Shown: positions 1 through 40,343 of the stretch, one piece after another | Layout: each line of letters opens with the position of its first letter | How positions within the stretch are numbered: the first letter of the stretch is position 1 | DNA from: a virus | Reading direction: 5' to 3' (one strand) | IMG/VR virus record: IMGVR_UViG_3300050821_015859 | Coordinates: 1-40,343 of that record | Length of the DNA: 40,343 nt | Program-made: the position numbers and the translations under genes | The notes under the pieces: generated by a model | Seen by the model: only the letters and a program-made list of their open reading frames with translations | The model's database searches: none | What the model was told of the DNA's origin: nothing

Positions 1-42
1 GTGGCGGAGCGCCGCCTGCAGCGGCAGCCTCCCCCGCTGCTG
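1..42. repeat. Left copy of 42-bp terminal direct repeat (circular overlap)
   Basis: Bases 1-42 are identical to bases 40302-40343. A gene runs through the joined ends in phase, so the repeat is most simply the overlap left when a circular or circularly permuted genome is assembled and cut. A real 42-bp terminal repeat of a linear virion genome is possible but would be unusually short. It lies inside a coding sequence. Confidence 0.93.
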
Positions 43-896
43 CGACGCTGGGAACGCTGGGCCAGACCGCCGTGCCCCAGGCTCCACCGCCGATCGCCGA
101 CCCAATGAACGCGGCCTCGATCCTGGCCAAGATCAAGGCGGACAATCCGAACCTTGACGCCGGCGTGCTCTCGAGCGTGGTCAACGACTACATGCTGCCG
201 TATCTGAGCCAGCAGCAGCAGAACAACTACAAGCATTTCCAGGAGCAGCTCGATTGGCAAAAGTTCACCGCCGGCGAGCAGGACAAGGCCAACACGCTCT
301 ATTGGCGCTTACTGCAGCTCGACGACATGATGCAGAGGTTCGGCATGACGACGCAGCTGAAGGAGCAGGCGACGGCGGCCAAGCAGGGGCTGGCGCAGAT
401 TCGCCAAAAGCACGTCGAGGCCGGCCAGGCCGCCAAGGCGGATAAGAAGGCCAAGGAGGGGGCGGCGGCGGGCAAGGCGGTCAAGCTGCCGCAGGCGCTG
501 CAGGTGGAGTTGCAGACGCTGAACAAGCGCCAGGGCTGGCTCGACGCGCAGATCAAGCAGGCGCGCGATTTGGGCCAGCTGAGCAGAGTTCCGGGGCTGG
601 AGAAGCAGCGCGACGACGTCCAGAAGCGGGTCGACGATCTCCTGGCCAAGGCTGAGCAGCTCGACGCCCAGGGGGCGCCGCAGCAGCCGACCCCCGCCCA
701 AGGCAGCGGCGACCCTGCCAAGGCGGGGCAGTCGGAGACGACGGTGCCTGCCGACAAGCCGGTGGACGGCATCACGCCCGAGGTCTGGGGGACGCTGAAG
801 CCGGCGCAGAAAAAGATCTTCCGCGATCTGTCCGAGGGGACGATCAGCAAGGAAGAGGCCAAGAAGAGGCTCGATGCGCTGACGACGGGGCAGTAG
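3..896 (+). CDS. 3' part of a 394-aa candidate ejection (internal virion) protein spanning the junction
   Basis: This frame is open from base 3 and is continuous with the frame that starts at 40013 once the ends are joined. The full protein is 394 aa, and a GTG at 72 is internal, not the start. The part seen here is a Pro/Ala-rich stretch followed by long Lys/Gln/Ala-rich helical segments (about 190-440 and 500-660 nt) likely to form coiled coils. A compact C-terminal segment follows, with the motif TLKPAQKKIFRDLSEG. No enzyme motif is visible. It sits in a row of virion-like genes between two Gly/Gln-rich proteins upstream and the 1152-aa polyvalent protein 3 bp downstream. That position and composition fit a DNA-ejection or internal core protein; the role is inferred from context only. 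Confidence 0.85.
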   Translation, partial: GGAPPAAAASPAAATLGTLGQTAVPQAPPPIADPMNAASILAKIKADNPNLDAGVLSSVVNDYMLPYLSQQQQNNYKHFQEQLDWQKFTAGEQDKANTLYWRLLQLDDMMQRFGMTTQLKEQATAAKQGLAQIRQKHVEAGQAAKADKKAKEGAAAGKAVKLPQALQVELQTLNKRQGWLDAQIKQARDLGQLSRVPGLEKQRDDVQKRVDDLLAKAEQLDAQGAPQQPTPAQGSGDPAKAGQSETTVPADKPVDGITPEVWGTLKPAQKKIFRDLSEGTISKEEAKKRLDALTTGQ

Positions 897-899
897 CCC

Positions 900-3800
900 G
901 TGGCCGGCCCCAGCCTCGACGACCTCGTAAACAGCGTAGCGGGAGCCAAGGCTACGTCGGCGCCCCCGACGACGACCCCGCCGCCCGCGCCCACCAGATC
1001 CGCGCCTAATGTCGACGATCTCCTGAACAGCGTTGCCGGGGCCAAGGCAGCGCCAGCGCCCCCCCAGGCTGAAGCGCCCGCGGCCCCGGACGCGGGCGGC
1101 GTGGTGACCCCTGCCACGCCGTCTCCGCCTGCCAAGCCGTTCCAACAGCCCCGCGACGTGGCCAGGAAGGTGACTCCATCCACCGGTCCCTCCGCGGGAG
1201 ATGTCTGGAAAACCTTCGTCGAGGGCATAAAGCAGGTGCCCAAGGCCGGCGGCGAGGCGGCCCAGGCCGAGGTCGCGGCGGAGCAGAAGGCAGGATTGCC
1301 CGCCGCGCTGAGTTACGTGACCGAGCCCTTCCAGTTCGGCGTCGCCGCGACTAGCCAGGCCATGGGCACGGTGTTCGATACCGCGGTCAAGGCGGCGCTG
1401 GCCTTCGCCGGCAACGCCGGCATGGACGAGACGACCCAGAACCAGCTCGAGGGGGATCTCAATACCCTGATGCTGGGCAGCAGCGGCGACGTCGGCGCGC
1501 TGCATGGGCAGATCAAGGCGGAGCTCGAGAAGCGCGCTCCCCCGGGCACCGCCGAGGCCTTCGACAAGGCGTCGATGCCGCCGACCGACCGCGGCCCCGG
1601 CATCACCGTCCACCACGGCAGCCCGCACCAGTTCCAGCAGTTCGACACGGCCAAGGTCGGCACCGGCGAGGGCAACCAGAGCTATGGCCATGGGCTCTAC
1701 TTCGCCGAGAACCCCGACGTGGCGAACACCTATCGCAAGAATGCCCCCGTTTCGCCGGAAACTGCGGCAATGGCCAGCAAATATCCCCCCACGCCAGAGG
1801 GGGGCGAAGCCCTGGCCACCAGAGCCAGAGAGCTCTCGGACAAGGCGCAGGCGGGGACCCTCACCGACGCGGAGCGTCAGGAACTGGGGCAGATCAAGCA
1901 ATACCACGCCTATCTGACCGCGCCCGAGGGTCACCTCTACACGTCGACCATTCATGGCACGCCCGACGAGTTCCTGCACCTGGACAAGCCGGTCTCCGAG
2001 CAGAGCGCACACGTTCAGGAGGCGCTCAAAAAGTCACCCGAGGCGCAGGCCGCAATCAAGCGCTTAGGCGGTGACCCGACTGGCGAGCAGGTCTACCGCG
2101 CCATGGCGGAGGACCTGGGCGGTGGCCCCGACACCCCCATGGAGAAGCTCCCCGAGGCCGACGCCCGAGCCTCGGCGGCCCTGAACCAGGCCGGCATCAA
2201 GGGCAACCGCTACCTCGACGCCGGCTCGCGCGGCGCCGGCGAGGGCACCCACAACTACGTCGTCTTCAATCACGACGACGTCTCTATCACCCACGTCAAC
2301 GGCGAGCACCTGGCCGACATCGTGGCCAAGGCGCGCGGTGCTGCCGGGGGACCGCCAGCCGGCGAGCCGCCCTTCGCCGGCCCACCCCCGGGCGAGCCGC
2401 CCGGAGAGCCGCCGCCCCCGACCCGCGCCTCCATCACGGCCACGCAGACCGATCTCGCCGATCGCCTCCACGCCCACGACCAGCGGGCGACGGCCGATAA
2501 CATCGAGACCATGCAGCTCGGCAAGCCCGCTCACGAGGCCATTCCCGACACGGCCACCCGCGAGCAGTTGATCCACTACCAGGAACAACCCAACAAGATC
2601 ACGCTCAGCGACCGCGTCAAAGCGCTCTTCAACAAGCACGTCCTGCCGATCATCCGCGCCCGCGAGGAGGTCCAGAACAAGATCGCCGACCTCGAGGGCA
2701 AGCCGCGCTACCCCGCCTGGCCGAATCCCCGCCCCGGTGAGGACATCTCCCATGCCCCCCGCATGGCCAAGGACAAGGGCTCGACCATCGACTGGCTGCT
2801 CAAGGGCATCGGCATGCGTGTCGGCCGCAAGAGCCTGAGCAAGGTCGGGGACAAGGCCCGCACCGTCAAAGGCCCGATGATCGATAACCCGAGGGTGGCC
2901 TACCACAAGGACGTCGTGGTCAACAACCTCGTGAAGCTCGCGGAGACCAAGCGCCAGCTCCGCAACATGGAGATGACCGAGCACCTCAAGAGCGCCCCCG
3001 AGCTCGACGCCCTGCGCGAGCCGAAAAAACCGGGCGGGTGGGGGCAGACCCCGGGATGGCGCCAGATCCCTCACGTCCCCCAGCTGGGCGACCATTTCTG
3101 GCACCCCCGGATCGCCAATGCGATCGACGACGCCTTTAAGGACTTCAAGCGCTCGGGCGACGGCGCCGCGTTCTACGCCCACGTCAACCGCCTGCTTGTC
3201 GGCTCGATGTTCTACACGCCGATCGGCCACATCCTCAACGTCTTCACCGACACGCTCATCTCCAAGGGCGCGGTCGGCATGGCCGTCGACCTGGTGACAG
3301 GGCGATCCTTCAAGGCGTTCGGCAAAGCCGTCCGCGAGGTGGCGACCCTGGGCAAGGACTACCGCGCCAATCTCCGCGCCGGCTCCTCGCTCCAGTACGG
3401 TGCCGTGGCGACGGACAGATTCATTCCGAGCCTGGTCGAGGGGTTGGATCGCCACGTCAAGGCCGACCCCGGGGCGTGGGCCGAGATCGCCAAGGCGGCG
3501 GGCCACGCCAACCCCGTCGAGCTCGTGAAGGGGATCTACAATCTCTCGCGCAAGTTCCTGTGGGGTGTCGGCGACGTCCTGAAGCTGACCCGCCAGTACG
3601 AACTCGAGGCGAAGGGCATGAGCCGGGCCGAGGCGATCAAGGAGACCGAGAAGCACATCGTCAGCTACCGCGTGCCGACCGAGGTTGGGTCCAGGGTGCT
3701 GGGCGAGCGGGGCGGGCGCATGCTGTCGCAGCTGATGCAGAGCCCCGTCATTTTCGCTTTCGGGCGCTACCACTACGGCCTGCTGAAGTCCCTGGCCTCC

Positions 3801-4358
3801 GTTGGCCGCGATCTGGCTGTTGGCACGGCCAAGGAGAGAATGCGCGCCGTCGACAGCGCGCTCATGATGGGCGTCGTCTACCTCGGCTACCGCGTCGCCG
3901 ACGACCAGGTGCGCAAGCTCCTGGGGAACCAGGATGCTTCGATCAAGCGCTCTGGTATATTCGGCCTGGAGGACCTCGTCGAAAAGGCGGCGGCAGGCGA
4001 GAAGGACGCCCGCGACGTCATCCAGCGCATCATGACGCTAAATCCCGCGTTCAGTTTTCTGGCCGATCTGTACGAGGAGAGAGACCCCTATACTGGCCAG
4101 AAGGTTGTTCGGGAGCAGGACCTTATTGAGCATCCCGGCAGGTTCGCCAAGGAGATCGGCAACGTGTTCGGGCAGAAGATCATGCCGATCAAGGAGGGCA
4201 TCGACCTGGCCACGGGCAAGACCACGCCGCAGCAGGAGATCCTGAAGCAGCTCAACATCAACGACCCGGACCCAGATCAGGTCGAACTGGCCAGGATCGC
4301 GCGGCTGAAGGCGGATCGTGCAACGGAACGATCTATGCGCAAGAAGTACGGCGATTAA
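900..4358 (+). CDS. Large polyvalent virion protein with ADP-ribosyltransferase domain
   Basis: 1152 aa, GTG start 3 bp after the previous stop. Residues 1-110 are disordered and Pro/Ala-rich and hold a duplicated motif, DDLVNSVAGAKA (7-18) and DDLLNSVAGAKA (39-50). Residues about 233-470 match the ADP-ribosyltransferase fold found in phage polyvalent proteins (ART-PolyVal): a TVHHGSPHQF segment near 236, then SYGHGLYFAENP (261-272) and a closing NYVVFNHDDVSITH strand. A Pro/Gly linker (about 483-508) leads to a helical C-terminal half with hydrophobic patches (about 760-800 and 960-1000) like those of large polyvalent and podovirus internal proteins. By family knowledge such proteins are injected with phage DNA, and the ART domain would modify a host protein or nucleic acid using NAD+. 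The acceptor is unknown. Activity is inferred from the motif pattern and position. Confidence 0.85.
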   Translation: MAGPSLDDLVNSVAGAKATSAPPTTTPPPAPTRSAPNVDDLLNSVAGAKAAPAPPQAEAPAAPDAGGVVTPATPSPPAKPFQQPRDVARKVTPSTGPSAGDVWKTFVEGIKQVPKAGGEAAQAEVAAEQKAGLPAALSYVTEPFQFGVAATSQAMGTVFDTAVKAALAFAGNAGMDETTQNQLEGDLNTLMLGSSGDVGALHGQIKAELEKRAPPGTAEAFDKASMPPTDRGPGITVHHGSPHQFQQFDTAKVGTGEGNQSYGHGLYFAENPDVANTYRKNAPVSPETAAMASKYPPTPEGGEALATRARELSDKAQAGTLTDAERQELGQIKQYHAYLTAPEGHLYTSTIHGTPDEFLHLDKPVSEQSAHVQEALKKSPEAQAAIKRLGGDPTGEQVYRAMAEDLGGGPDTPMEKLPEADARASAALNQAGIKGNRYLDAGSRGAGEGTHNYVVFNHDDVSITHVNGEHLADIVAKARGAAGGPPAGEPPFAGPPPGEPPGEPPPPTRASITATQTDLADRLHAHDQRATADNIETMQLGKPAHEAIPDTATREQLIHYQEQPNKITLSDRVKALFNKHVLPIIRAREEVQNKIADLEGKPRYPAWPNPRPGEDISHAPRMAKDKGSTIDWLLKGIGMRVGRKSLSKVGDKARTVKGPMIDNPRVAYHKDVVVNNLVKLAETKRQLRNMEMTEHLKSAPELDALREPKKPGGWGQTPGWRQIPHVPQLGDHFWHPRIANAIDDAFKDFKRSGDGAAFYAHVNRLLVGSMFYTPIGHILNVFTDTLISKGAVGMAVDLVTGRSFKAFGKAVREVATLGKDYRANLRAGSSLQYGAVATDRFIPSLVEGLDRHVKADPGAWAEIAKAAGHANPVELVKGIYNLSRKFLWGVGDVLKLTRQYELEAKGMSRAEAIKETEKHIVSYRVPTEVGSRVLGERGGRMLSQLMQSPVIFAFGRYHYGLLKSLASVGRDLAVGTAKERMRAVDSALMMGVVYLGYRVADDQVRKLLGNQDASIKRSGIFGLEDLVEKAAAGEKDARDVIQRIMTLNPAFSFLADLYEERDPYTGQKVVREQDLIEHPGRFAKEIGNVFGQKIMPIKEGIDLATGKTTPQQEILKQLNINDPDPDQVELARIARLKADRATERSMRKKYGD

Positions 4359-4377: not shown

Positions 4378-4869
4378 ATGGTGATGGCAAACAAAGGCGT
4401 CCCGGGCGTGGTCTACAAGATCCAGTACGGCAACATCGTCGACGGCATCCTGGCCAGCCCGGCTGAGACCGCCGCAGCCGCGGTGGAGCTTTCCGACACC
4501 GTCGGTATCGAGGAGATCACCGACATGATGCACGAGGCCATGCACGAGATGGGCGTGCCGGATTACCTGGTCCTCACGACCGAGCAGGCAATGGCGCGCG
4601 TCGCAGCATCCAAGGCCGAAGCCGAGGCTGCCAAGGCCGCCGAGGCTGCGGCGAAGGCCGAGGCTCCTGCGCGGGCTGAAGCTCAGAAGGCCGTCGAGGC
4701 GGCAAGGGCCGAAGCCGAAAAGGTCAGGGCCGCCAAGGCCAAGGCCCGGGAGGACGCCGCCAAGGCCAAGGTCCAGGCTGCGCGGGAAGCCGAGGCCGCC
4801 GCAGCCAAGGCCGCCGCGGCCAAGCCGGCGGCACCGGCGCATCCGGGCGCTGCTCCCGTCCGGCCGTAG
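4378..4869 (+). CDS. Lys/Ala-rich tail protein, candidate packaged DNA-binding or coiled-coil protein
   Basis: 163 aa. The ATG at 4378 is chosen because AGGAGGA lies 9-15 bases upstream; a longer in-frame extension to 4318 has no ribosome-binding site and overlaps the previous gene. Residues 1-70 form a compact domain (motif DTVGIEEITDMMHEAMHEMG). Residues about 75-163 are almost only Ala, Lys, Glu and Arg in AEAAKA-type repeats ending in a Pro/Ala tail, giving a long charged helix that resembles a histone H1-like or TolA-like tail. It lies between the ADP-ribosyltransferase protein and the ATP-grasp ligase. Binding to DNA or partners inside the virion is a guess from composition. Confidence 0.8.
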   Translation: MVMANKGVPGVVYKIQYGNIVDGILASPAETAAAAVELSDTVGIEEITDMMHEAMHEMGVPDYLVLTTEQAMARVAASKAEAEAAKAAEAAAKAEAPARAEAQKAVEAARAEAEKVRAAKAKAREDAAKAKVQAAREAEAAAAKAAAAKPAAPAHPGAAPVRP

Positions 4870-4872: not shown

Positions 4873-6198
4873 ATGCGGCTACTCGTCGTCGACCCCGGCG
4901 GCGATGCGCTGGACTTCTGCCTGCGCGCCAAAAACGCCGGGCATGAAGTGCTTCATTGGATGCGGGCCATGCGCGAGACCGAGTACATCGGGCGCGGGCT
5001 GGTCACCCGCGTCGCCGACTGGCGCGAGCACATCGCCGGGGTCGATCTGGTCTTTCTCTCCGACAACACCCACTGGCTGCGCGAGCTCGACGCCTGGCGT
5101 GACCGCGGCACCCCCATCTTCGGCTGCAACCAGGATGCGGCCGAACTCGAACTGAACCGCCAGGCTGGCCAGCAGGTCCTGAAGGCCGTCGGCATCGATA
5201 CTCTTCCTTATAAGACCTTCAGCGCGGCCAAGCCGGCGATCGCCTATGTCAAGGACCGCATGGCCCCGGTCGTCTCCAAGCCCAACGCCGACGCCGACAA
5301 GGGCATGAGCTACGTGGCCAAGACACCCGAGGACATGGTCTACATGCTCGAGCGCTGGGACCGGCTGGGGAAGCTGAAGGGGGAATTCATCCTGCAGGAC
5401 TACGTGCCGGGCTGCGAGATGGCGGTGGGCGGGTGGTTCGGGCCCGGCGGGTGGAACCGCGGCTGGTGCGAGAACTTCGAGTTCAAGAAAATGATGGACG
5501 GCGACCTCGGCGTCAACACCGGCGAGCAGGGCACGGTCTTGCGCTATGTCGCCCAGTCCAAGCTGGCCAAGGCGGTGCTCGAGCCCGTGGGCGACTGGCT
5601 GGAAGACCGGGATTATTGCGGCTACATTGACGTCAACTGCATCATCGACGACGAGGGCACCCCGTGGCCACTGGAGTTCACCTGCCGCCCTGGATGGCCG
5701 ACCTTCAATATCCAGCAGGTTCTGCTCGACGGCGATCCCGTGGATTGGATGATGGAGACCCTGGAGGGCAACGACCCGACGTGCTGGGAGCTGGACCGGG
5801 TGGCGCTGGGGGTGGTGATGACGATCCCCGATTATCCGTACTCTCACGTGACACGAAAGGAAGTGGTGGGCGTCCCCGTCTACGGCGTGACCCCGGCGAT
5901 CGCGCCGAACATTCATCCCCTCCACATCATGCTGGGGGAGATGCCGGTGGAGATCCAGGGCAAGATCGCAACGGTGCCGGGCTACGTGACAGGTGGGGAC
6001 TACGTCTTGGCGACGACGGGGACGGGGGAGACCATCCTCGAGGCCAAAAACATGGCCTATCGCATCATGCGGCGGCTGAAGCTGCCGAACTCCCCCCAGT
6101 ACCGGACCGACATTGGGGATCGTCTGAAGAAGCAGCTGCCGGATTGCCAGAAGCACGGCTACGCAACGGGACTGGTCTGGGACTCCCCGAAAAGCTAG
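4873..6198 (+). CDS. PurD-like ATP-grasp ligase
   Basis: 441 aa, ATG start 3 bp after the previous stop. The order of motifs is that of ATP-grasp enzymes close to phosphoribosylamine-glycine ligase (PurD). There is an N-terminal nucleotide-like fold (RLLVVDPGGDALDF, 2-15), an ATP-binding lysine in VVSKPNADADKG (133-144), the QDYVPGCEMAVGGWF strand (175-189, E182), and the metal-binding YIDVNCIID (251-259) and LEFTCRPGWP (267-276). Family knowledge: ATP-grasp ligases activate a carboxylate as acyl phosphate and join it to an amine or thiol. The substrate cannot be read from the sequence. True PurD makes a purine intermediate, but here the gene sits in the ejection-protein cassette and not beside nucleotide genes. 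Protein tagging, small-molecule amide synthesis or DNA hypermodification are alternatives. Its end overlaps a continuing open frame (see 6192-6437). Confidence 0.85.
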   Translation: MRLLVVDPGGDALDFCLRAKNAGHEVLHWMRAMRETEYIGRGLVTRVADWREHIAGVDLVFLSDNTHWLRELDAWRDRGTPIFGCNQDAAELELNRQAGQQVLKAVGIDTLPYKTFSAAKPAIAYVKDRMAPVVSKPNADADKGMSYVAKTPEDMVYMLERWDRLGKLKGEFILQDYVPGCEMAVGGWFGPGGWNRGWCENFEFKKMMDGDLGVNTGEQGTVLRYVAQSKLAKAVLEPVGDWLEDRDYCGYIDVNCIIDDEGTPWPLEFTCRPGWPTFNIQQVLLDGDPVDWMMETLEGNDPTCWELDRVALGVVMTIPDYPYSHVTRKEVVGVPVYGVTPAIAPNIHPLHIMLGEMPVEIQGKIATVPGYVTGGDYVLATTGTGETILEAKNMAYRIMRRLKLPNSPQYRTDIGDRLKKQLPDCQKHGYATGLVWDSPKS

Positions 6199-6437
6199 AG
6201 GCGGCCACCCACCAGGCGCTCGACAAGCTGGTCGAGATCATCTCCGAGCCGATTCACCGCATCGAGGAGGACTACGTCCCCCTGGCCCGCATCCAGTCGG
6301 ATGCGAGCAAGACGATCGTCACGACCCAGGTTCGGACCGACGAGGCCCGCTTCCGGGCCCGCCAAGGCGACCAGCTCCAGGCGCTGCTCGAGATGGTGGC
6401 CAGGCGGCAGGCCGAGAAGGCTATGCAATCTTCGTGA
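6192..6437 (+). CDS. Coiled-coil reading frame lacking a normal start; possible frameshifted C-terminus of the ATP-grasp gene
   Basis: A frame of 81 codons follows the ATP-grasp gene in the -1 phase and ends at TGA 6435-6437. It encodes a convincing helical, charged segment (LDKLVEIISEP, then QLQALLEMVARRQAEKA). No in-frame ATG, GTG or TTG exists that would give this product alone. An AGAGG sequence overlaps the ATP-grasp stop but no start codon follows it. The junction holds CCCC (6185-6188) and AAAA (6190-6193) runs. One extra base there would fuse both frames into a single ~522-aa protein. Programmed frameshifting, a rare start codon, or a one-base assembly or sequencing error are all possible. 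Confidence 0.5.
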   Translation, partial: KLEAATHQALDKLVEIISEPIHRIEEDYVPLARIQSDASKTIVTTQVRTDEARFRARQGDQLQALLEMVARRQAEKAMQSS

Positions 6438-6711
6438 CGCCCTTGATGTCGCGGACGTTCCGCTCGTCTTCCCCTCGTAAGACCGTAAACGATACCGTCT
6501 TTCTGGCCCTCGGCATTTGCTGGGTGCTACTCCGCCGTATGAGCCAACAAACCACGTGTTTGTTGCGCTGGCGGGCCGGCACCACGACGCCGAAGACGAT
6601 GTGACACTCGCTGCACACCAGCCGCTCCTGCCGCGCCGTCGGCTTGGGGATCGGGCACTCGTACAGCAGGTGCATGCCGCAGCGCCGGCATTCGAAATAG
6701 TCCTCGCTCAT
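6421..6711 (-). CDS. Small zinc-ribbon protein
   Basis: 96 aa on the minus strand, the last gene of the leftward early block. The ATG at 6711 overlaps the primase stop as ATGA, so it is translationally coupled. Two CxxC pairs are visible, FECRRCG (7-13) and LVCSECH (31-37), about 24 residues apart, typical of a zinc ribbon. The C-terminal half is basic (RRSSTQQMPRARK). Its 3' end overlaps the convergent plus-strand frame by 17 bp. Role unknown; an accessory to the primase-helicase or a transcription factor-like ribbon are possibilities from position. Confidence 0.8.
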   Translation of the reverse strand: MSEDYFECRRCGMHLLYECPIPKPTARQERLVCSECHIVFGVVVPARQRNKHVVCWLIRRSSTQQMPRARKTVSFTVLRGEDERNVRDIKGVTKIA

Positions 6712-9542
6712 TCGTAGTCCCACTCGTTGAATTTCGCCGACCTCTGCTCTGCCCCCTTCTTGTCGGCGCTGTGGACGAGCTCGAGCCGGGCGATCGCCTT
6801 GTGGGCGAGATTGATGCGCCAGCAGCGGATGAAGCCCCCGGCCGACCACGGGCTGCCCGCGCCCAGGTTCTTGTTGAAGGTCTTGTCGATGATGACCCCC
6901 TCCTTGGCCAGGCTCGCCTCCATGTCGCGGAAGATGACGTGGTTCTCGGTGCACCACTCCTGCATGTAGTGGCGCTCGATATAGAGCCGCTTCTCCTCCT
7001 GCTCGATCCGGACCCTGAGCGTGTCGCTCGTCGGCCGCAAAACCGGATCTTGATCCCAGGAGGTATCCTGGCTCATCACCAGCGTCTGCTTCCAGTGGCT
7101 GTTGATGAAGCGCTGCAGGATGTGCGGGAAGTTCGGCATGTTGTCGAGGATGCCCTCGCGGTTCGCTTGCGCCGCCTCGATGCCGAACTCGATGTAGCGC
7201 TGGACGTCGAACTCCAGCATGTTCCAGTGGTTCAGCAGGTCGCCGGCGACCCGGATCGCGGCCAGCAGCGCCGAATAGAACCGGTGCTCGGACCCCTTGG
7301 CGATCGCCAGCGAATACTTCTCCTCCCAAAGTTTGCATGCCTCGACGCAGTATTTGAACGGCTCGGGCTGCACGAGGCCGGCGACGAACATCCGCCCCGC
7401 CTGGCCACGGTTGGCATCGAACAGCTTCTCGAGCTTGGCGCCCGCCGCCTGGTCGTAATCGTTCGGCAGCGTCGAGCTGAACTCCAGCACGCGCGCGGCC
7501 TGGGCGTGCTCGCCCTCGGTCATGACCGCCTGGGAGAGGCTCTCGTTGGCCGCCGATATCACGATGGTCGACCAGCCGTGCTTCATCTTGATCAGCTGGC
7601 CGGTACGGTCGAGTCTATTTTTATCCCTGCCGTCGGTGAACGACAGAATGAAATCCTTGGTCACGCCCGGGTCGCGATTGCGTAGCTCATCGAAGATGAT
7701 GGGGATGTTCGACAGCACCGCGATCTCCTTATAGCGGGCGTTCATCGTGTCGATGCGGTTGACGTCGATGGCGAATTGCTCGCCCCAGACCGTCCAGGCG
7801 GCACGCAGGCCCATGCTCTTGCCGGTGCCGCTGGGACCGACCTGGTGGACGATGCAGCCGCCGTTGCGGCGGAGGAAGCGCATCAGCGGGGCGGCAAAGC
7901 TGCACAGCATGGCGAAGGCCTGGGCCTCGAAGCCGGGAGCGAACATGGCGTTGGCGGCCACGGCCCAATCCTTGTAGTGGCCGCGCGGCTTCATCATGGC
8001 GGCGCGCTGCTCGCCCTCGCTCGAGACGCCGACGATGACGGCGGGTCCCTCTGGGCTATAGAGCTCGTTGCCGACCAGGAAGCTGCCATCCTCCTTCCAG
8101 CCGAACTGGTCGAATTCGAGCTCCTGCTTGCGCGTGTCCTGAATCATGGCGATGGCGGCCTGGATGTATTTGAAATACAGGTTGTGGCAATGCACGGGGA
8201 TGTTGATGCCGACCTTGGCGAGCCGGTTTATCAGGGTGTTGCGGTCCCCGGCTATCTCGATGACCTCGGTCGACCAGCCGTCGTGCGGCAGGAAGTGCTG
8301 GATGGCCAGGACCCGGCCGCCGATGCTCTCGCCTTTGCGCAAGCCGATCACGATGGCGGGGTGGCGGTAGACGCACTCCTCCTTGACCGTGCCGTCCGCC
8401 TTCTTGACCGGGGTCGTCATCTGATTGCTCTTCCAGTAGAAGGGCAACGGCAACGGCGGCAGTCCATTGGAGTCCGCGGCTGGCGCCATGGTCATCTCGG
8501 TCTCGCGGCCGAGCTGGATCGGGCTGGTTATTCTGCCGCTGTGCGGACAGTCCTTGCAGCCGTCCGGGTTCAGTTCCATGAACCGGGCGCAGGTGGTGGG
8601 GCCATGCTCCTTGGCATGGGCGTATTTCTTGGCCGTCTCTTCCCGCGTGTAGTTGGGATGGCCGGTCGACCACTCGTGGGCCAGCCTGGGGCCGTCGTCG
8701 CAATGAGCAAGAACGCATTCGCCGGCGTACCACAGAGGCTCCGGGATGTTGCCCTTGGTGTCGCGCATGTGCGCCATTTGGGCGCATTCGCCCGATATCT
8801 TCTCGCCCGAGGTCGGCTGCTTCTGATGGACCGCTAGGGCTGCGTCGGTTAGAGAGTCGGTTCGTCGAGATGATGCCAGAGGTGGTTCAACCTCTGAAGA
8901 TCGTAGTCCAAGGCATCCACTAATCTGCTCGAGGGTGAAGAATCCAACGCTGCCCGCGCATGCCACAAGAGGTCTGTCAGTATATTTATGGTTTCGCGTT
9001 CCGACGGGTCTGAGGATGGCCGCGCTGTTCGCGGTAGGGGCCGGGTCCACTCTAAAGCCATAGCGTCTTGTTGCGCTTTTAAGAAGTTGGGCAACGGGGG
9101 TCCAGGCCTCGGGGGTGACGGGAGAGGACAGCGGCCAATAGACATGCATCCCGAGGCCTGATTCCACCACAAGCGGAAAGGGAAGCCCAGTTTGTTGGAT
9201 AAACTCGTGCAATGCGCGCCGTCCGGCAGTGATATCCCCGTATGGCTTTCGATATCCACAATCGATGTCGAGCCAGAAGCATCGGGTGTGATGGACATTC
9301 TCCTGCGTCCTATGGTCGTTGCCCTGGAAGGTCGAGGTGGCATGATAGGTATCGTGCTCCTTCGTCGATCCCCAGAGCACGATTTCTTCCGCTTCCTCGA
9401 ACGTGGCCACGAAGTGGTGGACCATGTTCGTATTGATGCGCACGACCACGCATTTCCAGCCCTCGATCGACCAGATCAGGCGCCATAAGTCACTCGGGCG
9501 GATAATCTCCGCGGATGGTGGAGACCCTTGCGACCCGGTCAT
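6708..9542 (-). CDS. Primase-helicase (archaeo-eukaryotic-type primase fused to a DUF927/SF3-like ATPase)
   Basis: 944 aa. N-terminal AEP-type primase: catalytic acids in FWLDIDCG (89-96), the SGLGMHVYW motif (128-136) and RPVGTRNHK (178-186). A linker with Cys/His (C276, C281, C318, C329, C332, ending CPHSGRITSP) may bind zinc. The C-terminal half resembles DUF927-type helicases: GWKEDGSFLVGNELY (481-495), Walker A GPSGTGKS (569-576), Walker B IPIIFDE (613-619). It would lay primers and unwind the phage origin. No DNA polymerase gene is present, so extension is presumably by host polymerase. The ATG at 9542 overlaps the upstream HTH gene by 53 bp and has only a weak AAGG just before it, but no other in-frame start retains the first conserved block. 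Confidence 0.88.
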   Translation of the reverse strand: MTGSQGSPPSAEIIRPSDLWRLIWSIEGWKCVVVRINTNMVHHFVATFEEAEEIVLWGSTKEHDTYHATSTFQGNDHRTQENVHHTRCFWLDIDCGYRKPYGDITAGRRALHEFIQQTGLPFPLVVESGLGMHVYWPLSSPVTPEAWTPVAQLLKSATRRYGFRVDPAPTANSAAILRPVGTRNHKYTDRPLVACAGSVGFFTLEQISGCLGLRSSEVEPPLASSRRTDSLTDAALAVHQKQPTSGEKISGECAQMAHMRDTKGNIPEPLWYAGECVLAHCDDGPRLAHEWSTGHPNYTREETAKKYAHAKEHGPTTCARFMELNPDGCKDCPHSGRITSPIQLGRETEMTMAPAADSNGLPPLPLPFYWKSNQMTTPVKKADGTVKEECVYRHPAIVIGLRKGESIGGRVLAIQHFLPHDGWSTEVIEIAGDRNTLINRLAKVGINIPVHCHNLYFKYIQAAIAMIQDTRKQELEFDQFGWKEDGSFLVGNELYSPEGPAVIVGVSSEGEQRAAMMKPRGHYKDWAVAANAMFAPGFEAQAFAMLCSFAAPLMRFLRRNGGCIVHQVGPSGTGKSMGLRAAWTVWGEQFAIDVNRIDTMNARYKEIAVLSNIPIIFDELRNRDPGVTKDFILSFTDGRDKNRLDRTGQLIKMKHGWSTIVISAANESLSQAVMTEGEHAQAARVLEFSSTLPNDYDQAAGAKLEKLFDANRGQAGRMFVAGLVQPEPFKYCVEACKLWEEKYSLAIAKGSEHRFYSALLAAIRVAGDLLNHWNMLEFDVQRYIEFGIEAAQANREGILDNMPNFPHILQRFINSHWKQTLVMSQDTSWDQDPVLRPTSDTLRVRIEQEEKRLYIERHYMQEWCTENHVIFRDMEASLAKEGVIIDKTFNKNLGAGSPWSAGGFIRCWRINLAHKAIARLELVHSADKKGAEQRSAKFNEWDYE

Positions 9543-19834: not shown

Positions 19835-20965
19835 ATGTTATCACTGGAGCGGAAGCGAGGGTGGATGGTGGATTGGTTTTTGCCTGGGTGGAGTGTTGCG
19901 TTGGCTGTGACGTCGGCCAGTGGGGATGTAGTTATTCCCTCTGGCCAGTCGTGTTTATTGTTGCAGAACGATGGTGGGGTAGTTTGTTTTGTGCGTTGGG
20001 GGTCGGTGGTTCAGGTAGCGACGTCGAGTGATTTGCCGTTGCTTCCGGGTCGTGGTCTTGTTGTGGCCCCTGGCCAGGCGACGCATGTCGCGGCGATTGC
20101 TCCTGGTGGTTTGACGGTGCTGCGGATTACGGGTGGGAGTGGTCGGGTAGCGAACATTATTCAGGGGGTTGTATCGGCGGCAGCGAGCATTTCGCCGCCG
20201 TTGGATTCCATTGCTCCGGCTGTGGCCGCTTATTCTCTTCGTCGCCTGCGTTCGGCTTATGCTGGCCAGGCGGTGAATGTGAGGCGGAGTTCGGACAATG
20301 CGGTGAGCGACGTTGGGTTTGCGGGGAATGACTTTAACGTTGCGGGTTACAACGCCTTCGTTGGGGGTGGCTCAGGTTTCATTGCGACGTGGTATGATCA
20401 GACGGGGAATGGCCATCATGCGACGCAGGCGACCTTGGCCAATCAGCCTGGTGTGAGTTTGTCTGTCACTTCCACGGGTCGTTCTGCTGTCACTGGCCTG
20501 GCGATTACGAGTTCTTTGGCGGCGGTTGTTCCGGCGTCTGTTCTTCCGCTGACCCTGGCCGCGGTGACGCAGCGGACGGGTTCGTTTGGGACGTATGGGA
20601 TACCGTTGAGTTTGGGTAACTTTAATCCGGGGATATTTTATCAGAACAGTGCGAATGGGGGGCTTGGGGTAGCGAATTTGAACAGTGCGATTGGGGCGAC
20701 TCTGGTGGTTGGCGATGCGCCGTTTCATTCGACGATTGCGTTGAAGTTGGCGGGGGGTGGGAGCACGGTTGTGGTGGATGGGGTGAGTAATTCGGCGGGC
20801 TTGGCGGATGTGACGGGGTTGACGGGGTTGTATGTGTTTGACGTTGGGGTCTCGACGGGGTTGGTGGGGAATGTGTGCGAGGCGGTGTATTTCTCGAGTG
20901 CGTTGAGTGGTGGCGATCAGGCGACGTTGTACGCCAACCAGAAGGCGTACTACGGTACGCCATGA
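19835..20965 (+). CDS. Tail fibre/receptor-binding protein with arabinofuranosidase B-like domain
   Basis: 376 aa from ATG 19835; an internal ATG at 19865 with GAGGG ahead is an alternative start. Residues about 20-110 are homologous to the separate 102-aa protein encoded just downstream (shared LLLQN, CFV, ATHVA). Residues about 125-376 match the arabinofuranosidase B catalytic-like beta domain often used in phage tails: YSLRRLRSAYAG, VRRSSDNA, VGFAGNDF, GFIATWYDQTGNGHHATQ. Likely a virion-attached carbohydrate-binding or -cleaving protein for adsorption. The coding strand is unusually rich in G and T compared with the rest of the genome, which points to separate origin. Confidence 0.8.
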   Translation: MLSLERKRGWMVDWFLPGWSVALAVTSASGDVVIPSGQSCLLLQNDGGVVCFVRWGSVVQVATSSDLPLLPGRGLVVAPGQATHVAAIAPGGLTVLRITGGSGRVANIIQGVVSAAASISPPLDSIAPAVAAYSLRRLRSAYAGQAVNVRRSSDNAVSDVGFAGNDFNVAGYNAFVGGGSGFIATWYDQTGNGHHATQATLANQPGVSLSVTSTGRSAVTGLAITSSLAAVVPASVLPLTLAAVTQRTGSFGTYGIPLSLGNFNPGIFYQNSANGGLGVANLNSAIGATLVVGDAPFHSTIALKLAGGGSTVVVDGVSNSAGLADVTGLTGLYVFDVGVSTGLVGNVCEAVYFSSALSGGDQATLYANQKAYYGTP

Positions 20966-24775: not shown

Positions 24776-24967
24776 ATGATTTCGCTGCTGGTCTATGTCC
24801 TGATTCTCCTGATCGTGTTCGGCGTCGTCTTCTACTGCATCCGCCTGCTCCCAATCGACGAGCCGTTCAAGACCGTGGCCATCGTCGTCGTTCTGCTGAT
24901 CTTCGTCCTCGTCCTGCTCGGGCTGATCGGCATCGTCCCGGGCTTCACGGTGCGCCCGCTTGGATGA
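24776..24967 (+). CDS. Two-helix membrane protein, holin candidate
   Basis: 63 aa, ATG 24776 with GAGGT 3-7 bases upstream. Two hydrophobic segments, SLLVYVLILLIVFGVVFYCI (3-22) and AIVVVLLIFVLVLLGLIG (about 35-52), with a short polar loop (RLLPIDEPFKTV) and little outside the membrane. It resembles small phage and bacterial membrane proteins of this topology that I recall as holin-like. It overlaps the TerL start by 8 bp, so it is expressed with late genes. Confidence 0.68.
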   Translation: MISLLVYVLILLIVFGVVFYCIRLLPIDEPFKTVAIVVVLLIFVLVLLGLIGIVPGFTVRPLG

Positions 24968-26963
24968 CCGCCTCAGGCTGATCGAGAGCTTCCTCGACGA
25001 CCCGTGCATGGCGCACGATCTGCTGTTCGAAGCTAGGCATCCGCAGAAGACGCCGCCGTTCCATTACGAGAGCATCAAGGCCTGGTGGTCGACGGTGCCG
25101 CGGATCGGCGAGATGGCGTTCCGCGGGGCGGCCAAGTCGACGCGGGCTGAGGAGGCCCTGGCCGCCATGGCCGGGGTGCGGTTTTTCAAATATGCCCTGA
25201 TCGTCGGCAACAGCGAAACCCGGGCGGTCGAGCGGCTCTCGGCGATCAAGCACGAGATGCTGACCAACGAACGCTACATCACGGCTTTCGGGGATCTCCA
25301 GGGCCCGACCTGGAACGACGCCGAGATCCTGCTGGCCAACGGGGTGATGATCAAGGCCTTCGGCGCTCGCCAGAGCATGCGCGGGGCCAAGCATTGGGAC
25401 CAGCGCCCGGACATGCTGTTTGTCGACGACGTCGAGGACGAGGACAATGTTTCCTCCAAGGAACAGCGCGACAAGCTGTTTCGTTGGTTCTGGCGCTCGC
25501 TGATCCCGGCCTGCGAGCCCGATGCCCGGATTCGCATCGCCGGCACGCCGCTGCATCCCGAGAGCCTGCTCGAGCGGCTGCGCAAGGAATCGGGCTGGCC
25601 GTTTCCCGTCTATCCCATCGTCATGCCGGCGGTGACCGAGCCGCAGTACTGGGTGCAGTCGAACTGGCCGGGCCGCTATCCCCTGGAGAAGATCCGTGAG
25701 ATCAGGGATTCTTTTGCGAAGGTCGGTGATCTGGAGGGCTTTGTGCAGGAGTATCTGTGTCAGAGTGAGGAACCGGCACTCAAGGTCTTCCAGACGCGGC
25801 ATATTGTACGAGCACCCACCATCCCTGCTTGGGCTCCTTCTATGGTCGTCGTCGATCCCTCGCGAACGACGCGGGTTGGCAAATCGGCACGCACCGGATA
25901 TGTCGTCTTTTCCTGGCTCGGTTCGAAGTGCTACGTGCGCGCTGCTTACGGCGCTTATCATCAGCCTGACCAGATCATCGACGAAACCTTCAAGCTCGAT
26001 CGCACTTTTTCTCCAGTCAAGGTCGGTGTGGAGAAGGACGGGCTCGAGGAGTTCCTCATGCAGCCCTACCGGCAGGCCATTCTTAAGACTGGTCAGCCCG
26101 TCCCCTTGACCCCGCTGAACGCGCCGCGCGATCGCAACAAGACGCGGTTCATCTCGGGCCTGCAGGTCTTCTTCGAGGCCGGCGACATCCTGATGTGCGA
26201 CGACTTTCCTGATCTGTTCCAGGAAATGGACGGCTTTCCAAGGGGTATGGTAGATGTCCTGAACGCACTCGCCTATGCGCCGCAGCTGCGGGGCGGGCGG
26301 CCGGTCTACGACGACTTCGGCCTGATCCACGTCATGCCTGAGCTCGCCCCCGACCCTAAGCGCCCGGCCTATCTCGCCATCTCAGCCCGCGCTTCGCACA
26401 GCGCGGCCTGCTTGGTTCAGTTCAACAACGGTGCGTTGCGCGTCTATGCCGACTGGCTGCGCGAGGGCGACCCCACCTCCGCGCTTGAACAAATAATTCC
26501 CGAGGCCAAGCTGGCGGCTGGGCGAGCCGTGGTCCTGGTGGCGCCGCTCGCCCAGTTCGATCCCTACAACAACGTCGGCCTGGCCGGAGCCTGCCGGCGC
26601 CTGGGCCAGAATCCGACCCGGCTGCCCGGCGGCAGCACGGGTGCCCTCAAGCCGTTCCTGCAGAAGCAGGTCATGCACCAGCCCGCCTTCCTGGTCAGCC
26701 AGTCTGCGCGCTGGACGCTGAACGCGCTGGCGCTCGGCTACAGCTACGGCTTGGACAAGTCGGGGATGCTCAAGGCCGAGCCCGACGCCGACTACTACCG
26801 GACCCTGATGGAAGGCCTGGAGGGACTGGCCAAGTGGTTGACCCTCCAGTCGCCTTCGGGGGATAGTGAGGATGCTCACTATGCCTTCACCGAGACGGGG
26901 TACCGCTACATGACCTCGCGGCCGGGGATGCCAGATGGACGTCGAGCGCAGCTCAAGAGGTAA
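24960..26963 (+). CDS. Terminase large subunit with extra C-terminal nuclease-like domain
   Basis: 667 aa, TTG start at 24960 inside the previous gene. ATPase: Walker A variant FRGAAKST (54-61), Walker B MLFVDDVED (152-160), coupling motif AGTP (194-197). RNase H-like nuclease: MVVVDPSRTT (D299), VGVEKDG (E358/D360), GMVDVLNALAYA (D432). This motor cuts and pumps DNA into the procapsid through the portal. Usual TerL length is 450-600 aa. Residues about 465-600 add a second segment with the same layout as a nuclease domain (YLAISARASHSAACLVQFNNG) but with the first acid replaced by Ser, so probably inactive. No small terminase is recognised nearby. Confidence 0.9.
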   Translation: MDDRLRLIESFLDDPCMAHDLLFEARHPQKTPPFHYESIKAWWSTVPRIGEMAFRGAAKSTRAEEALAAMAGVRFFKYALIVGNSETRAVERLSAIKHEMLTNERYITAFGDLQGPTWNDAEILLANGVMIKAFGARQSMRGAKHWDQRPDMLFVDDVEDEDNVSSKEQRDKLFRWFWRSLIPACEPDARIRIAGTPLHPESLLERLRKESGWPFPVYPIVMPAVTEPQYWVQSNWPGRYPLEKIREIRDSFAKVGDLEGFVQEYLCQSEEPALKVFQTRHIVRAPTIPAWAPSMVVVDPSRTTRVGKSARTGYVVFSWLGSKCYVRAAYGAYHQPDQIIDETFKLDRTFSPVKVGVEKDGLEEFLMQPYRQAILKTGQPVPLTPLNAPRDRNKTRFISGLQVFFEAGDILMCDDFPDLFQEMDGFPRGMVDVLNALAYAPQLRGGRPVYDDFGLIHVMPELAPDPKRPAYLAISARASHSAACLVQFNNGALRVYADWLREGDPTSALEQIIPEAKLAAGRAVVLVAPLAQFDPYNNVGLAGACRRLGQNPTRLPGGSTGALKPFLQKQVMHQPAFLVSQSARWTLNALALGYSYGLDKSGMLKAEPDADYYRTLMEGLEGLAKWLTLQSPSGDSEDAHYAFTETGYRYMTSRPGMPDGRRAQLKR

Positions 26964-29025: not shown

Positions 29026-29042
29026 ATTCTGCCGGCAGAATT
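29025..29042. other. 18-bp perfect palindrome after the portal gene
   Basis: AATTCTGCCGGCAGAATT is its own reverse complement, starting at the last base of the portal stop codon. As RNA it can fold only with a very tight loop or pair with the repeats that follow. No T run, so not a standard terminator. Confidence 0.6.
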
Positions 29043-29067
29043 ACCGGCAGAATTACCGGCAGAATTA
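29032..29067 (+). repeat. Three exact tandem copies of a 12-bp unit
   Basis: CCGGCAGAATTA is repeated at 29032-29043, 29044-29055 and 29056-29067, directly between the portal stop and the next gene. Each unit can pair with the left arm AATTCTGCC of the preceding palindrome. Possible RNA-processing or attenuation signal, or slippage-prone repeat. Confidence 0.85.
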
Positions 29068-29109
29068 ATTCCTTACGGGCGTACACACCTTCACCTTTGG
29101 AGAAAACCA

Positions 29110-29541
29110 ATGCAGCGCACCCAAATTGTTATGATCGTTCCGCTCGGCGAAGGCCCCGTCGATCCCGGTTTCGGCAACCGTCCGGGCTATGGCGGCGGTT
29201 ATCCTTCGCAGGGTTTGCCAGGCTCGCCGGGGCATCCCAGCCAAGGCCTACCCTGGGGGCCGGGCCATGTCTCGCCGCCGATCTTCCATCCCGGACACCC
29301 GGACCACGGACTCCCGAGCGGCGGCCATGTCGGCAACCAGCTGCCGTGGTCGCCGGGCTCGCCGGACAACAGCCTGCCGGTTCCTCCCGGCATCACAGAG
29401 CCTCCCGTTCCGCCCGACCTCGCCAGTCAGGTAATCGTGTTGTGGCATCTCCCCGGTCAGGTGGAGTGGCACGGCAAGGTCATCGACCCGAGCCTTAGCG
29501 CCGGCATGCCGCTGCCGCCGGCGCCGGAACCGAAGTATTAA
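29110..29541 (+). CDS. Pro/Gly-rich collagen-like protein, 143 aa
   Basis: ATG 29110 with GGAG upstream (CTTTGGAGAAAACC). After a short N-terminus (TQIVMIVPLGEGP) the protein is a repetitive Gly/Pro/His run (SQGLPGSPGHPSQGLPWG; HPGHPDHGLPSGGH). It ends in a small ordered segment (ASQVIVLWHLPGQVEWHGKV). Low-complexity proteins of this kind occur between portal and scaffold genes in some podoviruses. Head-associated role is inferred. Confidence 0.7.
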   Translation: MQRTQIVMIVPLGEGPVDPGFGNRPGYGGGYPSQGLPGSPGHPSQGLPWGPGHVSPPIFHPGHPDHGLPSGGHVGNQLPWSPGSPDNSLPVPPGITEPPVPPDLASQVIVLWHLPGQVEWHGKVIDPSLSAGMPLPPAPEPKY

Positions 29542-29577
29542 CCGTTCCGCTTCCCGCCTGAGGGTAGCGCGAACCTT

Positions 29578-29613
29578 GCCGGCCGGGGCCGTCCCACAAC
29601 AGTCCCGGCCGGC
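29578..29613. other. Strong GC hairpin before the membrane protein gene
   Basis: Perfect 10-base arms GCCGGCCGGG (29578-29587) and CCCGGCCGGC (29604-29613) with a 16-base loop, ending 11 bases before ATG 29625. No T run. It would sit in the leader and could mask or set the translation of the holin-like gene, or cause transcription pausing. Confidence 0.6.
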
Positions 29614-37201: not shown

Positions 37202-37390
37202 ATGCGTGGAAGCAAGGGACACAGCAAGACCGTTCGCGGCACCAAGAAGGGCGTTAAGGGCACCGGCGGCCCGAAGCGCGGCAAGCGCGCCATCCACAAG
37301 GCCGAAGGCATCGCGATGAAGCCCCGGGGTAAGGGGCCGATGCGCCAGAGCCGGGTCGACAAGATGGAGAAAGCGGACCCCGCCGTGTGA
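37202..37390 (+). CDS. Very basic 62-aa protein
   Basis: ATG 37202 with GGGAG upstream. Lys/Arg/Gly make up most of it (GSKGHSKTVRGTKKGVKGTG; GGPKRGKRAIHKAEG). It resembles a protamine-like or internal DNA-associated peptide. Coupled as GTGA to the GNAT-like gene. Packaged DNA binding is inferred from charge and position only. Confidence 0.65.
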   Translation: MRGSKGHSKTVRGTKKGVKGTGGPKRGKRAIHKAEGIAMKPRGKGPMRQSRVDKMEKADPAV

Positions 37391-37884
37391 TTGCCGCGGA
37401 AGCTCCGTCGCCCGAATGGCAGGCGCTGTCGTTCGCCACGGCGCGCTTCCAGGAGATCATGTTCGACCTTCCGCCGCTCTTCCTGGCGCATTGGAAGGAG
37501 GTGGCCATTGACCGAGACCGAATCGCTCTGGAGCCGAATTTCCGCCAGTATCAGGCGCTGGACGAAGCTGGTTGCCTCGCTATTCAAACGGCCCGATGGG
37601 ACGGGGACTTAGCCGGGTATTTTTTCACCCTTATTGTCCCCCACCTGCATTACCAGAGCTGCCTGGCCGGTCTGACCGACATGTACTACCTGAACGAGCG
37701 CGCCCGGGTCGGCTGGGGCTATCCTCGGTTTTTCAGGTACGTCATGCGCGACCTGGCGGAGCGCGGTGTGAAAAAGCACTGGACTATGACAAAGTGTCAT
37801 TTGAATCCGAGCCTTGGGCAATTATGGGAGCGGATGGGCTACCGGCGGACCGAGACGGTCTACACCAAGATTCTGGAGGGCTAG
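37387..37884 (+). CDS. GNAT-like acetyltransferase-fold virion protein
   Basis: 165 aa, GTG 37387 overlapping the previous stop (GTGA). The second half has the GNAT order: a strand (DLAGYFFTLIVPHLHYQS), the acetyl-CoA loop-like ARVGWGYPRFFRYVMRDLAERG, and C-terminal CHLNPSLGQLWERMGYRRTE with a final strand. In T7-like phages an acetyltransferase-fold protein (gp13) is placed with internal virion proteins, and the same arrangement is seen here just before the ejection-protein row. Whether it still binds acetyl-CoA cannot be judged; the Q/RxxGxG loop is partly kept. Confidence 0.72.
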   Translation: MIAAEAPSPEWQALSFATARFQEIMFDLPPLFLAHWKEVAIDRDRIALEPNFRQYQALDEAGCLAIQTARWDGDLAGYFFTLIVPHLHYQSCLAGLTDMYYLNERARVGWGYPRFFRYVMRDLAERGVKKHWTMTKCHLNPSLGQLWERMGYRRTETVYTKILEG

Positions 37885-39036
37885 ATGGGCGGTGTCATCT
37901 CGGGCATTGGGTCGATCGCGGGTCCGCTCATCAGCGGCCTGTTCCAGCAGGGCGCCGGCGGCTCGAGCCCGGCGGGCAGCGCCATTGGCGGCTATCTCTC
38001 GAGCCAGGGCAACAAGCCGCAGGGCCAGACCCAGCCCGGTGCCTTCTACCCGCAGGGTGGCCAGGGCTTGGCCTACAACTATATCCCGACGGGGCAGGGT
38101 GGCATCGACCAGGGCTTCCTCAATCAGATGGGCTACAACACCGGCACGGGGCTGGGGGCGCAGCAGCTGGCCAATCCGATGATGGCGACGCTGCTGCGCA
38201 ACATCATGAACGACCCCAGCATGGCGGGCTACGGGGCGGCGGCGCAGCAGGCAGGCGGCATGGCTGGCCAGGCGGGGCAGGGCGCCTTCGGGGCCGGCGG
38301 CGCGCTCAATCAGCAGATCCTTGCGGCCTTGCCGCAGTTCCAGCAGATCCTGCAGCAGGGCACCGATCCGCAGAGCGCGCTCTACGACCGCACCCTGGCC
38401 CAGACCCGCGACCAGATGGGCGCCGGCTTGTCCTCGCAGGGGCTCACCGGCAGCGGGGTGGGCGGGGCGATCGAGGGCCAGGGCCTCTCTAACTTCAACA
38501 TCGACTGGCAGAATCAGCAGCTCTCGCGCGCGCTCTCGGCGATGCAGGGCTTCGGCGGCGCCATTGGGCAGGCTGGCCAGGGGCTGCAGGCGGGCGCTGG
38601 CTTGCAGGGCACGGGCATCCAGGAGGCGCTGGGCGCTGGCCAGATACCGTGGCAGGCGAACCAGAACATCTTCGGCGGGCAGAACACCGGCTTGACGAAC
38701 TTCCTCAATACCTTCGGCGGTAGCCAGAACATCGGCAACCAGAACCTGGGCCAGATGCTGTCGTATCTCGACACTGGTCAGCGGGCCAACACGCTCGCGG
38801 GCAACCAGGCAATGGGTGGGTTGAGCAACGTCCAGGGTCAGAACGCCGCAGCGGCGGGCGCGCTCTCGCCGATCATCTCGAGCGGGCTGTCGGGGCTCGG
38901 TTCGGGGCTGAGCCAGCTGTTCAACCTGTTTGGCGGCAGCAGCAGCAGCGGCATCCCGAGCGGTAACCCGCTCTATGCCGGCGGCTACAGCGGGGGCTTG
39001 GGCGCTGGCACGACGCTGACGGGTGCGGACTACTAG
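37885..39036 (+). CDS. Gly/Gln-rich candidate DNA-ejection protein, 383 aa
   Basis: ATG 37885 directly after the previous stop with GGAGGG upstream. A hydrophobic glycine-zipper N-terminus (GGVISGIGSIAGPLISGLF, 2-20) is followed by long Gly/Gln/Ala/Ser-rich low-complexity sequence (MAGQAGQGAFGAGGALNQQI; GFGGAIGQAGQGLQAGAG). Proteins of this style in podoviruses are internal proteins that leave with DNA and make a channel through the cell envelope. Assignment is from composition and position. Confidence 0.72.
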   Translation: MGGVISGIGSIAGPLISGLFQQGAGGSSPAGSAIGGYLSSQGNKPQGQTQPGAFYPQGGQGLAYNYIPTGQGGIDQGFLNQMGYNTGTGLGAQQLANPMMATLLRNIMNDPSMAGYGAAAQQAGGMAGQAGQGAFGAGGALNQQILAALPQFQQILQQGTDPQSALYDRTLAQTRDQMGAGLSSQGLTGSGVGGAIEGQGLSNFNIDWQNQQLSRALSAMQGFGGAIGQAGQGLQAGAGLQGTGIQEALGAGQIPWQANQNIFGGQNTGLTNFLNTFGGSQNIGNQNLGQMLSYLDTGQRANTLAGNQAMGGLSNVQGQNAAAAGALSPIISSGLSGLGSGLSQLFNLFGGSSSSGIPSGNPLYAGGYSGGLGAGTTLTGADY

Positions 39037-40012: not shown

Positions 40013-40343
40013 ATGGCGTCGATCGCGCAGGGGCTCATCCAGGGGCTGGCCACGGGCTTCCAGGGCGATGTGCTGGCGACCGACCTGCTCAAGCAGAAGA
40101 CCGAGCTGACGGAGCAGCAGCGCAAGCTGAAGCAGGAACAGGCCTCGGATAAGGCCGGCACCATCTGGTCGAAGGCGATCACGGACCTGCTCAGTGCGCA
40201 GCAGACCCAGCCGACGCAGCCGATCGCCCCGCAGCCCGGGCAGGCCAGCGTGCCGGGGCAGGGGGCAGGGCCGCCCGCCACGCCCACGGCACCCGGTCTC
40301 GGTGGCGGAGCGCCGCCTGCAGCGGCAGCCTCCCCCGCTGCTG
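40013..40343 (+). CDS. 5' part of the 394-aa candidate ejection protein (continues at window base 3)
   Basis: ATG 40013 directly after the previous TAG. The frame is open to the end of the window and continues in phase at base 3 when the 42-bp repeat is overlapped. N-terminal sequence is helical (SIAQGLIQGLATGFQGDVL; LLKQKTELTEQQRKLKQEQ) followed by a Gln/Pro/Ala-rich linker. See the entry at 3-896 for the rest. Confidence 0.85.
   Translation, partial: MASIAQGLIQGLATGFQGDVLATDLLKQKTELTEQQRKLKQEQASDKAGTIWSKAITDLLSAQQTQPTQPIAPQPGQASVPGQGAGPPATPTAPGLGGGAPPAAAASPAA
40302..40343. repeat. Right copy of 42-bp terminal direct repeat
   Basis: Identical to bases 1-42. Joining here gives an uninterrupted reading frame of 395 codons across the junction, supporting a circular map of about 40,301 bp. 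Confidence 0.93.

Follow-up and report, generated by a model that had tools for sequence, protein, structure and literature searches.

The window analysed here, the whole stretch of 40,343 bases of a virus record, carries a 42-bp direct terminal repeat (positions 1-42 and 40302-40343), and one of its genes, C1, continues in frame from 40013 over the joined record ends to 896. Because of these two features, it is probably one complete, circularly permuted genome, in which a late gene cassette wraps round the start of the record. The cassette comes after the terminase, portal and major head protein genes (24960-32091) and ends with a gene for a PurD-like ATP-grasp ligase, beyond which lies a convergent operon (Table 1). 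Elsewhere in the window, the gene at 19835-20965 combines a virion structural PHROG match with a partial arabinofuranosidase B catalytic domain (Pfam E 3.7e-10).

Table 1. Genes of the late cassette and its downstream flank in the window
Feature	Position	Strand	Evidence
C5, GNAT-like protein, head of the cassette	37387..37884	+	HMM E 3.5e-42
C2, late cassette protein	37885..39036	+	HMM E 2.7e-59
C1, first part, coiled-coil protein rich in P and Q, cut by the window end	40013..40343	+	
C1, second part, joined in frame to the first over the record ends	1..896	+	
C0, large late protein of 1152 aa with a conserved C-terminal half	900..4358	+	
A/E/K/P-rich protein of 163 aa, encoded 3 nt ahead of the ligase	4378..4869	+	
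PurD-like ATP-grasp ligase, 441 aa	4873..6198	+	ORF, Pfam, PDB, tree, fold, residue table
C4, small helical protein encoded after the ligase; the position of its start codon is uncertain	6186..6437	+	related-C4 HMM E 1.6e-16
DUF927 primase/helicase-like protein, first large gene of the convergent operon	6708..9542	-	

The ligase ORF is uninterrupted from its ATG to the stop codon and is not a chance ORF, because 74 full-length homologues with 43-60% identity to the window protein exist and 59 columns are invariant in an alignment of 44 family members. Its identification as a PurD-like ATP-grasp enzyme, originally made by reading the sequence, is confirmed by domain, sequence and structure comparisons alike. 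The protein matches Pfam GARS_A above the cut-off (E 4.5e-10; 40.1 bits against 27) and GARS_C with E 7.7e-7, yet under the cut-off, while all 11 PDB chains found by sequence are PurD (best E 3.6e-22). With a high-confidence AlphaFold model (pLDDT 91.7), the best 15 Foldseek matches are likewise all PurD, with E values down to 1.4e-30, so that the fold is that of PurD. In a viral structure library, only generic ATP-grasp proteins were matched (best TM 0.44), none of them a full-length PurD-like protein. Invariance of K136, E182, D253 and E268 across the phage set, together with the fold, places the ligase in the ATP-grasp superfamily.

The ligase is PurD-like but distinct from PurD, and probably represents a separate phage family with a changed substrate. 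On the purD equivalog model (TIGR00877), it scores 107 bits and thereby misses the 288-bit cut-off, which is reached by none of 23 related phage records. The phylogeny suggested with the original prediction, a maximum-likelihood tree of 79 proteins that is unrooted and contains no outer ATP-grasp family, separates 19 canonical PurDs from 60 phage, prophage and cellular paralogs by a branch with 100/100 support, at which, according to a warning of the program, long branches meet; the window ligase stands on the far side of this branch from PurD, within a phage group of weaker support (92/61).

Evidence independent of the tree comes from a residue table. K136, E182, K205, E268 and R272 are invariant across all groups and K143 is nearly so; hence, the ATP-grasp motifs are kept, as had been claimed. 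The roles of these single residues, i.e., lysines and acidic residues serving ATP and Mg binding, are presumably those known for the family. In the GxGGREHA loop, by contrast, the R, E and H kept in 17-18 of the 19 PurDs give way to other residues as the commonest ones in every phage and cellular paralog group, and the window ligase reads DPGGDALD there. The Asn of EFN and the Asp and Glu of GDPE, kept in nearly all PurDs, are gone in phage and cellular paralogs; the window ligase has neither this Asn nor the R[LF]GDPE signature, and W275 in place of the Asp and T270 in place of the Asn are found in 46/46 phage sequences, T277 in place of the Glu in 44/46. Fixed or nearly fixed in both phage and cellular paralogs are the exchanges of Gly for E218, Tyr for D253, Asn for T270, Asp for W/Y275 and Glu for T277; E218, T221, D253 and T270 are present without exception in the 59 cellular and 46 phage rows, and an aromatic residue at 275 is also common to both.

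Because of its tree placement and the lost PurD substrate residues, the ligase is not a housekeeping PurD, which agrees with the original expectation of a non-housekeeping enzyme in a conserved neighbourhood (see below). That it is nevertheless a genuine GAR synthetase, carried as an auxiliary purine gene, is highly improbable. PurD is indeed its nearest solved family by sequence and fold, and purD is listed as an auxiliary gene in viral surveys (PMC11097641, PMC12043954), whose hits may or may not belong to the ligase family; however, the score under the purD cut-off, the position outside the PurD clade and the lost signature residues argue against it, and the ‘extra PurD-like’ proteins of haloarchaea have been excluded on similar grounds (PMC3261824).

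Relatives of the ligase occur in at least 598 viral contigs, and the phage ligase clade is widespread, spanning at least several hundred contigs. In bacterial and archaeal genome data, near relatives are found in what appear to be prophages of Paraburkholderia and Glaciimonas and on MAG contigs, while about 60 more distant, cellular relatives come from DPANN archaea, haloarchaea, Woeseiaceae, Parvularculaceae and candidate-phylum bacteria. Ligase and cellular paralogs have the non-PurD motifs and the side of the tree in common and form an ‘extra PurD-like’ clade. This designation has been used for proteins of two haloarchaea (rrnAC0307 and Hlac_1553), which were judged not to be GAR synthetases (PMC3261824); going by their description, both probably fall within the cellular paralog clade, in which two other haloarchaeal paralogs are included. 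Canonical PurD above the cut-off is present in 26 of 30 genomes searched; the other four, several of which are incomplete assemblies, comprise three with a cellular paralog (Jorgensenbacteria, Diapherotrites and Woesearchaeota) and one with a phage-type gene.

Cellular paralogs adjoin a PGM1-type peptide ligase in six loci (PF18105, Woeseiaceae-type) and a GNAT protein (PF13480) in five; PGM1 joins an amino acid to a peptide (PMC8939145). In Woeseiaceae-type genomes, two more ATP-grasp genes, one of them PGM1-like, lie directly upstream of the cellular paralog (L123:7206-9977). The PGM1-like and peptidase neighbours are lineage-limited and were retained as leads only.

All 25 related IMG/VR records checked (~40-46 kb) have the lineage terminase in common, at ~40% identity. 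A set of 23 records of at least 35 kb was selected by terminase alone, with a profile of 19 terminase sequences, and some of these 23 are also part of the ligase-based set; unlike this profile, a scan with a single terminase sequence gave no matches. Within the lineage, the ligase is optional, being carried by 16 of 23 terminase-selected records, and canonical PurD is found in none of the 23. Queries with C0, C2, the portal and the HExxE protein described below gave no match among isolate phages, and no phage PurD-like or ATP-grasp virion enzyme was found in the literature searched. Within the known ATP-grasp enzyme superfamily, the family is a new phage subfamily.

The cassette has the order GNAT-like gene, C2, C1, C0, ligase and C4 in one uncultured lineage, with the ligase at its 3' end. 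Its members were counted over 62 loci, the window among them, that remained after dereplication at 90% identity and have 7.5 kb or more of upstream sequence. Of these, 55 contain C1, 53 C2, 42 C0 and 41 the GNAT-like gene; a related member of the GNAT-like genes passes Pfam Acetyltransf_1 with 21.5 bits against a cut-off of 20.7. As genes were called with a simple script, their start positions are approximate and short genes may have been overlooked. In 34/62 loci, the end of the upstream gene and the ligase start overlap as ATGA or TGATG. Downstream, C4 is present in 50 and an opposite-strand primase in 57 of 98 loci. Relatives of the A/E/K/P-rich ORF that precedes the ligase in the window were not found in related loci. 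Further upstream, 18 of the 62 independent loci contain a small gene, C9, ahead of the GNAT-like gene (e.g., L039:1879-2334), which weakly resembles aspartyl/asparaginyl beta-hydroxylase (Pfam E 0.0034, under the cut-off). The neighbourhood of the ligase is, thus, conserved; a lack of conservation would have counted against the original prediction. The description there of the neighbours as injected proteins stands in part: their late position after the terminase, portal and major head genes is observed, and injection itself would follow solely from that position.

The seven ligase-less relatives show how sharply the gene is delimited. Three of them retain the GNAT-like gene, C2, C1, C0 and C4 one after the other without a break, another has the whole cassette except for a recognisable C0, and the other three keep some members, those missing being either absent or too divergent for the profiles; in 7/7, the slot before C4 holds no ligase. 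C4 measures 103-147 aa in genomes without the ligase (L365-L385) versus ~73 aa after a ligase (e.g., L051:9371-9589), and some of the long versions have a PSLGSLDxLDLP-like N-terminal stretch. The C0 profile proved too divergent for scanning. Two candidate links to the ligase were given up or weakened in this comparison: the ‘YGG[TP]x’ at the C-terminus of C0, considered as a tag for ligation, was rejected as specific evidence because it is also present without a ligase, and the GNAT-like gene as a specific ligase partner lost weight, as it, too, occurs in ligase-less relatives. In locus L004, GGAGG lies in the DNA under YGG[TP]x, before the next start, and is likely an embedded ribosome site; this is not general, because a strong ribosome site precedes only a minority of the ligase genes (22/157).

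The same data bear on two further explanations. A structural or regulatory role, in which an ATP-binding fold without catalysis would act in assembly or ejection, matches the fixed neighbourhood among predicted virion genes; however, the ATP-grasp residues are invariant across 43-60% identity and the gene is cleanly absent from otherwise similar genomes, which makes this role very unlikely. Attachment of an amino acid to a modified base by the ligase, i.e., DNA hypermodification, was raised in the original prediction and could be allowed by ATP-grasp chemistry, but no base-modification gene was recognised among the ORFs scanned and the ligase lies in a late position away from replication genes, leaving this proposal with very little probability. 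Nucleotide-metabolism genes were said to be missing nearby, and there are indeed none among the ~20 larger ORFs to which the scan was confined. A job away from purines, as suggested originally, is in line with the lost PurD signature residues and the position outside the PurD clade, while ligation to DNA finds no support here.

A partnership of the ligase with a neighbouring ADP-ribosyltransferase (ART) had also been proposed, as a two-enzyme modification module. C0 has a match to ART-PolyVal at aa ~232-281 (E 1.2e-4; 23.3 bits, under the 31.2-bit cut-off), and HGS...YGxGLYF is visible in its sequence; an ART domain in C0 is plausible, and in the window the gene bearing it lies one gene upstream of the ligase. 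ART-PolyVal is, however, found in only one of 27 related records, which is the window itself, and the ART region of the window C0 has no match in 163 other ligase-bearing loci, all of them fetched for carrying the ligase. The adjacency is not conserved, which largely refutes the partnership; a joint ART and ATP-grasp module is barely credible.

The recurrent partner of the PurD-like ligase, better than ART, is a small HExxE protein, C24, of ~121 aa with invariant H48-E49-x-x-E52 and H91. It is encoded just upstream of the ligase in 6/62 loci, and a C24 HMM match (E 2.9e-38), the sole copy in that genome, adjoins the cellular paralog of a Jorgensenbacteria genome (L104:11279-11680). Among viral contigs selected by C24 only (24 contigs, ~20 of them distinct; L387-L407), 14 of the ~20 have a PurD-like or related ATP-grasp gene beside C24, with one gene between in 2/14. 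Five of these 14 contigs carry a divergent ATP-grasp subfamily found only by a mixed profile (E 3e-8 to 6e-17), and 3-4 of the five proteins are without a Pfam match. C24 and its ATP-grasp neighbour often overlap at start and stop codons, in diverse phages and in one candidate-phylum bacterium. In one contig (L397:1548-3525), the C24 homologue is followed by a gene of 517 aa that is GroEL chaperonin-like by eye.

C24 has no Pfam or PHROG match above the cut-off and no PDB sequence match. With its structure model (pLDDT 95.4), Foldseek returned nothing significant; the best match, the DPC-repair protease 6mdw (E 0.13), and several others among the top non-significant ones are metalloproteases, and C24 is perhaps a metallopeptidase. 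Since an HMM search found no C24 in the window, where only the ligase half of such a pair is recognisable, C24 bears on the ligase family and only indirectly on the window gene. Ligase and HExxE metallopeptidase might form a phage module for writing and trimming or erasing, recruited repeatedly by different phages for amino-acid tagging of virion or ejected proteins, a speculative proposal to which we assign a low probability; its logic would be comparable to that of tubulin tyrosine ligase and a detyrosinating metalloprotease.

Taken together, the ligase is predicted to be an active amide-forming (carboxylate-amine) ATP-grasp enzyme, related to PurD, with a changed substrate, made late and most likely acting on a protein or peptide; to this reading as a whole we give an even chance. 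It would use MgATP to convert a carboxylate to an acyl-phosphate and pass the acyl group to an amine. It would be expressed late, alongside the large protein C0 and the neighbouring proteins, and would modify a protein of the virion, an ejected protein or a host protein that the ejected ones encounter; in other phages, the HExxE protein beside it, perhaps a metallopeptidase, may trim the target or undo the modification. A protein or peptide is most likely the target in preference to a purine precursor, on the basis of gene position. The purD score, the tree, the residue table, the fold, the cassette, the gene-sharp absence, the paralog neighbours and the HExxE pairing speak for an amide ligase of this kind; the GNAT-like gene in ligase-less relatives and the lack of the HExxE protein in the window speak against it.

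The main rival is a small-molecule ligase, a cargo gene whose product would join an amino acid to another amino acid or an amine in the infected cell, its position providing for nothing but late expression. ATP-grasp enzymes often act on metabolites, and the optional presence of the ligase in the lineage (16/23) would equally fit such a cargo gene; cellular paralogs, moreover, are known here from reduced genomes that lack canonical PurD, and other ATP-grasp genes are among their neighbours. Against this stand the fixed position, the fact that in roughly half of the independent loci the gene is coupled to its late upstream neighbour, and the scarcity of other recognised metabolic genes nearby, and we regard the small-molecule ligase as possible but rather unlikely.

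Given that members of the family are frequent in environmental viromes, with PurD as the nearest named relative, automatic annotation as a ‘purine auxiliary gene’ is likely; such an annotation is contradicted by the residue and tree evidence. If virion or host proteins are indeed modified, the phage particle, or the opening minutes of infection, would gain a form of protein modification. Paraburkholderia and Glaciimonas can be cultured, so that their apparent prophages bring the question within reach of experiment, and the recurrent pairing of ligase and HExxE protein, which is undescribed in the literature searched, offers a concrete two-gene system.

Among known systems, PurD (GAR synthetase, TIGR00877) resembles the ligase in its whole-length fold (2yw2, TM 0.75, 22% identity), the ATP-grasp Lys and Glu residues and GARS_A. 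The ligase, however, lacks GxGGREHA, has GPxTGE[MQ]GT instead of GPNTGGMGA and EFTxRxGWPT instead of EFNxRxGDPE, carries an extra C-terminal tail and scores far under the purD cut-off. The haloarchaeal rrnAC0307 and Hlac_1553 are, as described, PurD-like and without the Asp of GDPE and a recognisable GARS_N (PMC3261824), but they are cellular, while the window ligase belongs to a phage. PGM1-type and other ATP-grasp peptide ligases are alike in their amide chemistry, yet constitute separate families that are not PurD-like, and the R2K/CDC123 ligases of jumbo phages (PMC4431377, PMC7824862), phage ATP-grasp enzymes that are predicted protein modifiers, belong to a different family. The Bcep22-like cassette (JC1 gp61-gp65; PMC9144972) places two enzymes, one of them an acetyltransferase, among its virion-associated genes in a comparable late position; it carries a PAPS reductase, and an ATP-grasp protein is not mentioned in the paper.
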